Shown here piece by piece: positions 5,861 through 14,255 of a stretch of DNA of 16,772 bases. Position numbers and translations under genes: made by a program. Source of the DNA: Ahrensia sp. (lineage in GTDB: Bacteria; Pseudomonadota; Alphaproteobacteria; Rhizobiales; Rhizobiaceae); assembly GCA_024639025.1 (NCBI GenBank), contig JAHEJF010000007.1:1-16772 (forward strand), written 5' to 3'. Each line of letters begins with the position of its first letter. Within the stretch, counting starts at the first letter, position 1. The notes below the pieces were generated by a model, which saw nothing but the letters and a program-made list of their open reading frames with translations, ran no database searches and had not been told where the DNA came from.

Positions 5861-5888
5861 CTATGCAATATTGGCATAGAATTATGCC
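5861..5888. promoter_or_regulatory. Putative LysR operator: two overlapping inverted repeats
   Basis: CTATGCAATATTGGCATAG (5861-5879) is a perfect 6-bp dyad around a 7-nt spacer and contains a T-N11-A LysR box (T5864, A5876). GGCATA-gaat-TATGCC (5873-5888) is a second perfect dyad sharing the middle half-site, so three half-sites lie in a row. The site lies 42-69 nt upstream of the lysR start and about 175 nt upstream of dctP. The first dyad shares the 10-mer TATGCAATAT with the operator at 12428-12442. Binding is inferred, not shown. Confidence 0.65.
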
Positions 5889-6010
5889 ATGTTTGAATTG
5901 GCCCGGAAGAAACAAGCATGAGTAGTCTGATTTTGGGTTGGCTGACGCTTAGCAATAACATTTTGCCAGATATTAGCATGAGACCAACCACAGCAATTGC
6001 CAGAGTTGAA

Positions 6011-6037
6011 TGGCTGATTGGGATGCAACATCAGCCA
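6011..6037 (+). promoter_or_regulatory. Hairpin in the dctP leader
   Basis: TGGCTGA (6011-6017) and TCAGCCA (6031-6037) form a perfect 7-bp stem with a 13-nt loop, ending 14 nt before the Shine-Dalgarno AGGGAG (6052-6057) of dctP. It could be an mRNA leader structure or a DNA dyad. No clear -35/-10 pair could be assigned in 5889-6063. Confidence 0.25.
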
Positions 6038-6063
6038 AAGCAACTCGCAACAGGGAGTAAAAA

Positions 6064-7056
6064 ATGAGCCGAACTTGGAAATATACAACTGCAATGGCCG
6101 CGTTGGCCTTCGCGACATCACTCACCGGCGCGCAGGCAGAAACGACACTGCGCCTGTCCACCTATGTAAACGAGGCGGATATTCGGTATCAGGGCTTTCA
6201 GCACTTTGCTGACCTTGTCGCGGAAAAAACCGGCGGCAGCGTTAAGGTCGAGGTCTTCCCCTCGGGCACGCTTCACGGGTGGTCTGAGGGCGTCGACTCG
6301 GTGCAGGGTGGTGTCTCAGACATCAGCTGGATCAATGCCGACAACCGTTTGCCTTGCTATGCGATGACTTCGCTCTATCCCGCAGAGATCAGTCTGGAAA
6401 ACCAGATTGAGCTGGATGCCGCATTTGCTGAACTGGTTCGGGAAGAGGCCGCCAATGTCAATCTGGTGCCGCTTCTCAACTCGAACTACACCTACGATCA
6501 GGAATGGTGGTTCGAAGAGCCGATCGAAGATCTTGGCAAGCTGGACGGTAAACTTGTGCGCTCGATCGGGCCACTGGTCAGCCTAATGATCGAATCCTGG
6601 GGCGGAGAGCCAGTATTCGTGGCGCCGAAAGAGGTCTTCCAATCCGCAGAACGTGGAGTTGTGGATGGCATTAACATGGGCGTTGCCACATATAGCTCGT
6701 GGAAGCTCTGGACCGTTATGCCCTACATGGTCAATGCCAACCTGTTCTATGGCAACGTCAATTACATGATGAACAAGGGCAAGTTCGACGCGCTTACTGC
6801 TGATGAGCAAGCCGCTCTGACCGCCGCCGCCACAGAAACCGAAACCTGGCTGCAGCCCCTTTACGAAGGCTGGGTTGACCAGCAGGTCGGCAATGCTGTG
6901 ATGCAAGGTGGCGGTGCCGCCGTATCCATCTCGGACGATCAGCGCGCAAGCCTGATTGCCAGCGTCCGTGACCAATGGGACGCCAAAGCTGACGAAGCAT
7001 GCGGTGCCGAACTTGCAGGAAGCATCCGCGATCTCTTTGCCGAACACGCGCCGTAA
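6064..7056 (+). CDS. dctP: TRAP transporter periplasmic substrate-binding protein (DctP family)
   Basis: This periplasmic protein captures the substrate, usually an organic anion, for the TRAP permease encoded next to it. The 330-residue length is normal for DctP proteins. A signal peptide is visible at 1-25, with a likely cut after AQA before ETTLRLS. The mature part follows the family plan: LRLSTYVNEADIRYQGFQHFA, VEVFPSGTL, and DGKLVRSIGP, where Arg166 is the position usually pairing with a substrate carboxylate. Then come GVVDGINMG and SSWKLW, with NANLFYGNVNYMMNK near the C-terminus. The start has AGGGAG seven bases upstream. It is first in the operon dctP-dctQ-dctM-hydrolase, facing a LysR gene. 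The substrate cannot be read from sequence; context suggests an acylated or amidated amino-acid-like or sulfonate compound. Confidence 0.93.
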   Translation: MSRTWKYTTAMAALAFATSLTGAQAETTLRLSTYVNEADIRYQGFQHFADLVAEKTGGSVKVEVFPSGTLHGWSEGVDSVQGGVSDISWINADNRLPCYAMTSLYPAEISLENQIELDAAFAELVREEAANVNLVPLLNSNYTYDQEWWFEEPIEDLGKLDGKLVRSIGPLVSLMIESWGGEPVFVAPKEVFQSAERGVVDGINMGVATYSSWKLWTVMPYMVNANLFYGNVNYMMNKGKFDALTADEQAALTAAATETETWLQPLYEGWVDQQVGNAVMQGGGAAVSISDDQRASLIASVRDQWDAKADEACGAELAGSIRDLFAEHAP

Positions 7057-7074
7057 CGCAAAGCGCATTTGATA

Positions 7075-7102
7075 CGCGGCCCCGGCAATCTCGGGGGCCG
7101 CG
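7075..7102 (+). terminator. Strong hairpin between dctP and dctQ
   Basis: CGCGGCCCC (7075-7083) and GGGGCCGCG (7094-7102) form a perfect 9-bp GC stem with a 10-nt loop, starting 18 nt after the dctP stop and followed by a T-rich stretch (acttctttct). It probably acts as a partial terminator or 3'-end stabiliser that gives more binding protein than permease, as is common in binding-protein operons. Expression of the downstream genes is expected by read-through, as no promoter is evident in the gap. Confidence 0.6.
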
Positions 7103-12454: not shown

Positions 12455-12480
12455 ATTTTGAATTATATTGTATGCTAAAC

Positions 12481-12500
12481 TGCGGGTAAGTTGCGGGTAA
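12481..12500 (+). repeat. Direct repeat of TGCGGGTAA in the leader of the cuyA-like gene
   Basis: Two identical 9-mers (12481-12489 and 12492-12500), 11 bp apart start to start, i.e. one helical turn, lie between the operator and the Shine-Dalgarno AGGAG (12509-12513). They may be a second protein site or a chance duplication. Confidence 0.35.
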
Positions 12501-12519
12501 AACAAGTTAGGAGCTTTCT

Positions 12520-13533
12520 ATGCATCTCGCCCGTTATCCCCGCCGCTTCATCGCCCACCTACCCACACCGTTTGAGCGGATGGACCGCTTAACCAAAGAA
12601 CTCAATGGACCGGAAATCTGGATCAAGCGCGATGATTGCACAGGTCTATCCACTGGTGGGAACAAGACCCGCAAGCTGGAATTCCTGATGGCCGAAGCTG
12701 AGCTACAGGGCGCGAACATGGTGATTACCCAAGGAGCCACACAATCCAATCACGCCCGTCAAACCGCAGCTTTTTCGGCCAAGCTGGGTATGGATTGTCA
12801 CATCCTTTTGGAAGATCGCACCGGATCCAACAATGCCAATTATAATAACAACGGAAACGTACTTCTGGATCACCTACATGGGGCCACTACCGAAAAACGA
12901 CCCGGTGGATTGGACATGAACGCCGAAATGGAAGCCGTGGCAGAGAAATTTCGCGCCGACGGCAAAAATGTCTACACCATTCCCGGCGGTGGTTCGAACC
13001 CCACCGGCGCTTTGGGCTATGTGAACTGCGCGTTTGAGTTGCTGGCCCAGGCTAATGACCAGGGTCTCAAGCTTGACCACATCGTTCACGCCACCGGCAG
13101 CGCAGGCACGCAGGCGGGTCTGATTGTTGGCCTCAAGGCGATGAACGCACAGATCCCGCTGCTTGGTATCGGTGTGCGTGCGCCGAAAGCCAAGCAGGAA
13201 GAGAACGTTTACAACCTCGCCTGTGCCACAGCAGAAAAGCTTGGCTGTGCCGGTGTCGTGCAGCGTGAAGATGTGGTAGCTAACACCGATTATGTCGGCG
13301 AAGGCTACGGTATTCCAACTGAAAGCGGCATTGCAGCCATTCAGACGTTTGCCGAATTGGAATCAATCCTGCTTGACCCGGTTTATTCCGCCAAAGGGGC
13401 CGCGGGATTCATCGATCTGATTCGCAAAGGTCGCTTCAAGAAAGGTGAGCGGGTTGTGTTTTTGCATACAGGAGGATCAGCCGCTTTGTTTGGCTATGAT
13501 GCAGCCTTCGATCATAAAGCGTGCTGGGTATAA
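12520..13533 (+). CDS. cuyA: PLP-dependent L-cysteate sulfo-lyase / D-cysteine desulfhydrase family enzyme
   Basis: This PLP enzyme is expected to split cysteate into pyruvate, ammonia and sulfite, or D-cysteine into pyruvate, ammonia and sulfide. The 337-residue sequence matches, from memory, CuyA of roseobacters better than generic D-cysteine desulfhydrases, including RDDCTGLSTGGNKTRKLEF (38-55), SNANYNNNGNVLLDHLHGAT-like text at about 103-123, and EKRPGGLDMNAEMEAVAEK (125-143). The Schiff-base lysine is Lys49 in GGNKTRK; other PLP-site features are GATQSNHARQTAA (72-84), GGGSNPTGALGY (156-167), GSAGTQAG (193-200) and LHTGG (315-319). The start has AGGAG 6 nt upstream. It is divergent from a LysR gene and followed after 17 nt by a racemase gene. 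The known partner for sulfite export (cuyZ) is absent nearby, which leaves the choice of substrate open. Confidence 0.85.
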   Translation: MHLARYPRRFIAHLPTPFERMDRLTKELNGPEIWIKRDDCTGLSTGGNKTRKLEFLMAEAELQGANMVITQGATQSNHARQTAAFSAKLGMDCHILLEDRTGSNNANYNNNGNVLLDHLHGATTEKRPGGLDMNAEMEAVAEKFRADGKNVYTIPGGGSNPTGALGYVNCAFELLAQANDQGLKLDHIVHATGSAGTQAGLIVGLKAMNAQIPLLGIGVRAPKAKQEENVYNLACATAEKLGCAGVVQREDVVANTDYVGEGYGIPTESGIAAIQTFAELESILLDPVYSAKGAAGFIDLIRKGRFKKGERVVFLHTGGSAALFGYDAAFDHKACWV

Positions 13534-13550
13534 AGGACGTCTCTGGACAA

Positions 13551-14255
13551 ATGAACAGATTTCGACGCATAGGCGTGTTGGGGGGCATGGGGCCAGAGGC
13601 CACTGTCGCCCTCATGCAGCGGATACAGGCAGGAACGCCTGCACGCGATGATGCTGACCATATACCGCTTTTGGTCGATATGAATCCACAGGTGCCGTCA
13701 CGCATCCAGCATTTAATTGAGAAGACCGGCCCCAATCCGGGGCCTGTCATTGCCGACATGGCCGCCCGTTTGGAAATTGCGGGCGCCGAAGCATTGATCT
13801 TGCCGTGCAATACGGCCCACCATTATGAGCAATACATCACCGACCGGGTGGCTATTCCGTTTCTCAGCATGCCGAAGTTGACATGCGACACTCTGACGGG
13901 GCTGGTGCGTCCGGGAACCAGGATCGGAATCTTGGCCTCACCTGCAACAAACCAAATCGGCCTGTTTCAGTCGCTCTTGTCAGATCGAGGTATGTCGACG
14001 CTTTGGCCCCGTGATGAAGTTACGGTCTTGGCAGCAATCCGGCGGATCAAGACTACAGGTCCAACACTTGACGACCTGTCTGTGCTACAGGACAAAACCA
14101 ACGAATTAGTTGATCGGGGAGCATCTGCTATCTTGATTGGCTGCACCGAATTCTCGTTGATTGGCACCGAACTTTCAGCTCCAGTGCCAGTTGTCGACGC
14201 TTTGGACGTGCTTGTGAAAGCCGCGTTGGCATTTTCTGGCACTGGCACACCTTAA
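13551..14255 (+). CDS. Aspartate/glutamate racemase family amino acid racemase
   Basis: It is predicted to interconvert D- and L-forms of an amino acid without PLP by a two-cysteine mechanism. The 234-residue protein has the family start RIGVLGGMGPEATV (6-19), the first catalytic Cys86 in LPCNTAHH and the second Cys198 in IGCTEFSLI, plus PLVDMNP-like text near 39-46. I chose the ATG at 13551 because family members begin just before IGVLGGMGP; a GTG at 13521 would overlap the upstream gene. A weak ribosome site (CTGGAC) precedes the ATG. It is 17 nt behind the cuyA-like gene, so it likely racemises that enzyme's substrate or the product of the N-acyl-D-amino-acid deacylase. Substrate specificity within this family cannot be told from sequence. 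Confidence 0.9.
   Translation: MNRFRRIGVLGGMGPEATVALMQRIQAGTPARDDADHIPLLVDMNPQVPSRIQHLIEKTGPNPGPVIADMAARLEIAGAEALILPCNTAHHYEQYITDRVAIPFLSMPKLTCDTLTGLVRPGTRIGILASPATNQIGLFQSLLSDRGMSTLWPRDEVTVLAAIRRIKTTGPTLDDLSVLQDKTNELVDRGASAILIGCTEFSLIGTELSAPVPVVDALDVLVKAALAFSGTGTP

Follow-up and report, generated by a model that had tools for sequence, protein, structure and literature searches.

The closest described relatives of the locus reported here are the cuy genes for the breakdown of cysteate, an algal sulfonate. According to excerpts of the published accounts, cuyA of Ruegeria pomeroyi DSS-3 is SPOA0158 and lies with cuyR and cuyZ (PMC4334477), CuyA favours D-cysteate and releases pyruvate, ammonia, and sulfite, and CuyB interconverts L- and D-cysteate (PMC11382572). 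We analysed a stretch of DNA from Ahrensia sp. (Rhizobiaceae), 16,772 nucleotides in full and hereafter called the window, which carries cuyA and cuyB together with a tripartite ATP-independent periplasmic (TRAP) importer, an alpha/beta hydrolase (ABH), and an amidohydrolase of the D-aminoacylase fold (the deacylase). The window is one whole contig (JAHEJF010000007.1; C574) of a draft genome (G000) of 2.85 Mb in 605 contigs, estimated to be 81 per cent complete. With a probability of about 0.75, we read the locus as a horizontally moved cysteate-utilization cassette that overwrote an older cluster of the ATP-binding cassette (ABC) type, with an amidohydrolase at its seam that is not an established cysteate gene.

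Between the flanking genes, the order is LysR1 (- strand); dctP-dctQ-dctM-ABH-amidohydrolase (+); LysR2 (-); and cuyA-cuyB (+). Every gene named in a preliminary description of this DNA (TRAP importer, coupled hydrolase, deacylase, racemase, lyase, and two LysR regulators) is present here with an open frame, as judged from open reading frame (ORF) translations and Pfam and NCBIfam family matches. That description had joined the genes into a pathway in which an N-acylated, possibly D-, compound of the cysteate or cysteine type is imported, deacylated, racemized, and finally split by elimination. The pathway is partly supported: its cysteate part holds, and its N-acyl-D-cysteate step finds support neither in linkage nor in residues. 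The description included neither the curated CuyA and CuyB models nor two gene fragments at the cassette edges, a LysR fragment (4436..4939, -) and an ABC-permease fragment (14292..14546, +).

A cysteate cassette with a TRAP importer

CuyA (12520..13533, +) reaches 548 bits with NF052482, the curated model for D-cysteate sulfo-lyases (cut-off 450), and CuyB (13521..14255, +; the true start is perhaps 13551) scores 267 bits against the curated cysteate racemase model NF052483 (cut-off 190), bearing out the proposed cysteate-type breakdown by a racemase and a CuyA-type lyase. Both racemase cysteines, which we take to be catalytic, can be read in the translation within the motifs PCNTAH and GCTEF, as previously described. 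CuyA is 89.6 per cent identical to a megaplasmid protein of R. pomeroyi DSS-3, recognizable as SPOA0158 by its neighbour genes, and approximately 90–93 per cent identical to the plasmid proteins of R. pomeroyi and Phaeobacter inhibens.

The TRAP subunits DctP (6064..7056; PF03480), DctQ (about 7134..7643, start predicted; PF04290), and DctM (7643..8944; PF06808 and TIGR00786) are all encoded on the + strand and match their families above the cut-offs; ABH follows on the same strand (about 8920..9711, start predicted; PF00561). We examined 46 other cuyA loci, comprising 30 from the window's family, 8 from a second genome set, and 8 plasmid records taken from 34 with a match, some of which are near copies; six of the loci lie on short contigs of less than 12 kb, and one (G185, from the family) has a cut gene scoring under the cut-off. 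CuyA above the cut-off occurs in 30 of 394 genomes of the family, the window's included. The window's TRAP type was found at nine of the 46 loci (L104, L132, L133, L137, L138, L157, L158, L161, and L162), representing five genomes (G441, G048, G699, G789, and G640) and four P. inhibens plasmids. All nine carry ABH and two LysR genes (by homology in seven, by annotation in L137 and L138) in the order ABH-M-Q-P, LysR1, LysR2, cuyA, so the suggested tie of the importer and hydrolase to cuyA is upheld. DctP is 90 per cent identical to that of G441 and shares 83 per cent identity with the orthologues next to cuyA on two P. inhibens plasmids. DctM orthologues of 81–95 per cent identity (E at most 1e-170) occur in at least 6 of 394 genomes of the second set, a lower bound, as are the deacylase counts below, because only the first three or four candidates were scored in most genomes. 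All six of these genomes have CuyA above the cut-off, adjoining the TRAP genes in four; the two blocks are approximately 24–26 kb apart in G460 and on separate contigs in G746. This linkage suggests that the TRAP substrate may be cysteate or a close sulfonate.

LysR1 (4935..5915, -; PF00126/PF03466) and LysR2 (11464..12426, -), a CuyR-type gene divergent from cuyA, were described beforehand as related; most of LysR1 lies to the left of 5861, where the region of that description begins. In a tree of 68 LysR proteins, they do fall within one large group, although on two separate branches: LysR1 groups with nine TRAP-adjacent LysRs (support 100/98), and LysR2 with six cuyA-adjacent LysRs, including that of R. 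pomeroyi (99/94). LysR1, which is 81 per cent identical to the LysR1 adjoining the same TRAP genes in G441, is probably the regulator of the TRAP-ABH genes.

The R. pomeroyi cuyRAZ genes (SPOA0157–0159) resemble the window in that cuyA is divergent from a LysR belonging to the LysR2 group and adjoins a TRAP importer. They differ in that this importer is of another type (24–31 per cent identity), cuyZ is present, and the 25 kb examined contains no ABH, CuyB, or deacylase homologue. Four P. inhibens plasmids (pP66_c, pP92_a, pP88_b, and M636 unnamed1) share the window's TRAP type (DctM 91 per cent identical in the two measured), ABH, both LysRs, and CuyA at 90–93 per cent identity, whereas the TRAP block has the opposite orientation, cuyZ replaces cuyB (with RidA as well in two), and the deacylase is absent. 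The G441 locus (L157) matches the window from ABH-DctMQP through LysR1, LysR2, and cuyA to cuyB (DctM 95, CuyA 88, and CuyB 68 per cent identical), but has cuyZ, lacks the deacylase, and does not have the inverted TRAP block. The plasmids of L133, L137, and L138, all from P. inhibens, are typed as conjugative.

The cysteate part of the locus is thus the known pathway, here in a mobile TRAP-ABH form. In the scheme we propose, LysR1 would control dctPQM-ABH and with it the uptake of cysteate or of a closely related sulfonate; LysR2 would control cuyA-cuyB; CuyB would convert L- into D-cysteate; and CuyA would split D-cysteate into pyruvate, ammonia, and sulfite, the last two steps being activities known for these families. 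Among the roseobacters compared in the excerpted account, the importer genes cuyTUVW are confined, or almost confined, to R. pomeroyi (PMC10130141). A candidate for the cysteate importer of the others is the TRAP-ABH-LysR1 block, whose linkage to cuyA is seen both in the window and on plasmids of roseobacters, some of them typed as conjugative.

Gene fragments at the cassette edges

The cassette is bounded by the C-terminal part of a LysR gene (4436..4939, -; 168 amino acids with one internal stop) and by the last 84 amino acids of an ABC permease (14292..14546, +). The LysR fragment is 53 per cent identical to the cuyA-divergent LysR of G039 (L122) and 47 per cent identical to that of G184 (L124), and its 81-amino-acid open part has its best matches in the same ABC-type clusters (L122/L093, L121/L092, and L124/L095). 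The permease fragment is 100 per cent identical at the amino-acid level to L122 (G039, all 84 residues), 99 per cent to L124 (G184), and 96 per cent to L121 (G115). Its DNA is 78 per cent identical to that of G039 over 273 bases, with mostly silent divergence, and its matches in two genomes of the window's own genus (L146 and L147) reach 53 per cent. In G039, G115, and G184, the cluster order is LysR, cuyA, ABH, binding protein, ATPase, permease. The TRAP cassette therefore lies between remnants of the first and last genes of such a cluster, with order and strands as expected.

Because both fragments are nearest to the same ABC-type clusters and are correctly ordered and oriented, they suggest that an older ABC-type cysteate cluster stood at this site and may have been replaced in place by the TRAP cassette. 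The LysR1-TRAP-ABH block is inverted in the window relative to all nine relatives, and the deacylase lies at the new seam. A cassette with this inverted block would have overwritten the ABC-type cluster except at the 3' ends of the LysR and permease genes; recombination between LysR genes at the left edge is our guess at the mechanism. The fragments thus offer a likely case of one catabolic cluster being replaced in place by another of the same function.

The two genomes of the same genus (G109 and G180) have neither CuyA above the cut-off nor a deacylase match. Their matches to the rhamnose (rha) and lyxose-isomerase genes that flank the cassette lie in separate locations, and these genomes therefore provide no clean empty site. 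Separately, an ORF at 14285..14527 (-), which seemed to be conserved near cuyA, proved to be a shadow ORF, opposite the permease fragment encoded on the + strand.

The amidohydrolase at the seam

The deacylase (9834..11438, +) has the D-aminoacylase fold, and all 29 aligned sequences conserve its metal-binding residues and the catalytic Asp (H62, H64, C91, H217, H247, and D409), in agreement with the preliminary description of an intact metal site. Pairwise alignments had placed the catalytic Asp in an ANDG motif; multiple alignments place it at D409 in ISDT. The residues that we take to be the alpha-carboxylate anchors (Lys252, Tyr283, and Arg377 in 1M7J numbering) correspond to Q249, V281, and T427, and the multiple alignment shows them to be absent from all 24 sequences of at least 54 per cent identity, the window's included. 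Relative to the subtype V amidohydrolases 1M7J and 3GIP (D-aminoacylases) and OngB (9KB1, a GlcNAc1A deacetylase), the anchors are replaced by Gln, Val/Ile, and Thr/Ser, and the loop preceding the last anchor differs in length. Two distant homologues that retain the anchor Arg (L011 and L016) also carry Gln at the Lys position. The role of such residues in holding the alpha-carboxylate of D-aminoacylase substrates is given in an excerpted account (PMC12017989).

The survey of gene neighbourhoods in relatives, which the preliminary description had set beforehand as a possible refutation, came out against a linkage of deacylase and cuyA. The deacylase occurs at none of the 46 other cuyA loci, the nine with the window's TRAP type included. 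Orthologues of 54–75 per cent identity are present in at least 15 other genomes (the nearest listed deacylases, P0002 and P0003, are 86 and 80 per cent identical); five of the 15 have CuyA above the cut-off (G326, G776, G645, G718, and G531), in no case on the same contig. These counts led us to reject the idea that cuy clusters normally include the deacylase. A genome contig scan with the deacylase returned two loci only, a plasmid search returned 29 records with a best identity of just 34.7 per cent, and a viral contig scan gave no match.

Import of N-acylated D-cysteate, followed by its deacylation by the amidohydrolase and breakdown by CuyA, appears improbable to us. The deacylase does lie between TRAP-ABH and cuyA, co-directional with the TRAP genes and with its metal site intact, and CuyR-like LysRs adjoin some of its distant orthologues (see below); against these points stand the missing linkage and the replaced anchors. 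In addition, CuyA favours D-cysteate, so a pathway starting from N-acyl-D-cysteate could do without a racemase, and the presence of one points to L-cysteate. Of the steps suggested previously, racemization and elimination by CuyA are supported, deacylation is not, and the order is doubtful. We found no published account of N-acetylcysteate breakdown in a searched literature that holds few subscription papers.

The relatives of the amidohydrolase belong to another conserved cluster. The 70–75 per cent group comprises 12 loci, one of which (L058) has the gene cut at a contig end. The 11 readable loci (L001, L038, and L047–L055) all pair the deacylase with another TRAP type (DctM at least 80 per cent identical to that of L049), and they differ from the window also in their LysR; none of the loci examined has a homologue of cuyA, cuyB, cuyZ, or ABH. 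A second amidohydrolase (at least 51 per cent identity) is found in 10 of the 11, a CobW-type GTPase in eight (one cut), and one LysR type in eight. L038 and L047–L055 show the conserved combination of TRAP importer, D-aminoacylase-like enzyme, second Amidohydro_3 enzyme, CobW-type GTPase, and LysR; the family names are taken from a single locus, L049. The 54–58 per cent group (L039, L056, and L057) has other transporters. L057 and L056 place the deacylase among genes for a binding protein of the dipeptide type, a metallopeptidase of the M81/MlrC type, and a hydrolase of the beta-lactamase family, as assigned by a family scan of L057. In the window, the amidohydrolase would probably be co-transcribed with the TRAP genes and hydrolyse an N-acyl or cyclic amide.

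Several observations weigh against our reading of the locus. A CuyR-like LysR adjoins the deacylase in all three genomes with 54–58 per cent orthologues, so the deacylase may be more than a passenger. Those of G541 and G629 fall on the LysR1 side of the tree (fork 89/80) and that of G326 tentatively on the LysR2 side (fork 93/85); because similar LysR queries were used to collect the rows of the tree, such placements are favoured. A less biased search with LysR1 covered 12 whole genomes, picked for cuyA, the deacylase, or kinship, and gave nine near full-length matches (59.6–593 bits). Five adjoin cuyA or the window's TRAP type (two each in G441 and G048, one in G326), three adjoin the deacylase (G326, G541, and G629), and the last (G441, C43) lies, by eye, near an amino-acid ABC system. 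Against such a link, five genomes of the 70–75 per cent group (G150, G504, G692, G603, and G468) gave partial matches only (at most 59.3 bits), and the two same-genus genomes none. Furthermore, the mutant-verified cysteate importer of R. pomeroyi is cuyTUVW, as stated in the excerpted account (PMC10130141), and not the TRAP adjoining its cuyA. No CuyZ sulfite exporter lies beside cuyA in the window, and no CuyZ-type exporter (PF03601) matches anywhere in the 81 per cent complete draft. CuyA also passes the broad subfamily model TIGR01275 of the D-cysteine desulfhydrase family (321 bits, cut-off 289), and the nearest solved structure (7ysk) and plasmid annotations name its homologue D-cysteine desulfhydrase, which may be a side activity. 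As the main role of the lyase, it was rejected, since the CuyA model is passed and the desulfhydrase equivalogs are not (NF003029, 287 of 610 bits; NF003030, 305 of 429; NF003032, 280 of 469). Finally, the window, as a single contig of a fragmented draft, may be chimeric.

The anchor loss and the CuyR-like LysRs beside the deacylase would also fit an enzyme acting on an amino-sulfonate amide without an alpha-carboxylate, such as N-acyl-taurine-like or cysteinolate-like compounds, in which case the anchor loss would be adaptive and the diet widened to conjugates. Amidohydro_3 enzymes that cleave N-acyl taurines have been reported (PMC13081902, a preprint, in excerpt). We nevertheless regard this as unlikely, because the 70–75 per cent orthologues lie away from cysteate genes, with another TRAP throughout and another LysR in 8 of 11 loci, and because CuyR-like LysRs are also found near other ABC transporters; for example, a LysR2-like gene of G012 adjoins a cuy-related ABC system with no cuyA next to it. 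More broadly, the amidohydrolase subfamily might hydrolyse amino-sulfonate amide conjugates, partly under cysteate-type LysRs, and might have been plugged into the mobile cassette to give a pathway for conjugated cysteate or cysteinolate, a speculative extension to which we give little credence.

ABH, CuyB, and neighbouring genes

ABH, a recurrent partner of cuyA and a candidate for a further step in cysteate clusters, has a homologue within approximately 10 kb of cuyA at 14 of the 30 other loci of the window's family, beside several importer types, whereas the 18 loci surrounding deacylases that served as controls (295 kb) have none. In a slightly different set of 48 loci, the window included, ABH and cuyB co-occur in five, with ABH only in 19, cuyB only in 18, and neither in six (Fisher P = 0.0004, ignoring shared ancestry); the corresponding numbers for the family's 30 loci alone are 3, 11, 12, and 4 (P = 0.009). 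Across these loci, L104, L132, and L157 among them, ABH and CuyB look like alternative partners of CuyA. Given this rarity of co-occurrence and the recurrence of ABH beside both TRAP and ABC importers, ABH rather than the amidohydrolase could be the unblocking hydrolase, acting on an ester or amide to release D-cysteate, a role that would account for most ABH clusters lacking the racemase. We hold this to be doubtful, though conceivable: mapped on the CuyA tree, the presence or absence of ABH requires approximately nine changes, of which just three are forced by well-supported branches, and ABH and cuyB occur together in the window and in G441. Alternatively, ABH could serve to drain 2-aminoacrylate. 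RidA acts on 2-aminoacrylate, and it follows cuyZ at 4 of the 46 loci (L104, L132, L137, and L158). ABH stays below the cut-off of every NCBIfam model that bears a specific name, and we found no published account of ABH in cysteate clusters in the same searched literature, with its few subscription papers.

At L069, a hydantoinase-like enzyme and an Asp/Glu/hydantoin-racemase-like gene (2832..5391, identified by eye) are divergent from a cuyA-ABC-ABH cluster; the pair is possibly another amide-opening route adjoining cuyA.

Outside the edge fragments, the left flank of the window (3..4322) encodes a rhamnose block, consisting of a class II aldolase/short-chain dehydrogenase fusion and a RhaA-family isomerase, and an aminopeptidase, and the right flank (14668..16632) encodes a D-lyxose isomerase and an MGH1-like glycoside hydrolase.

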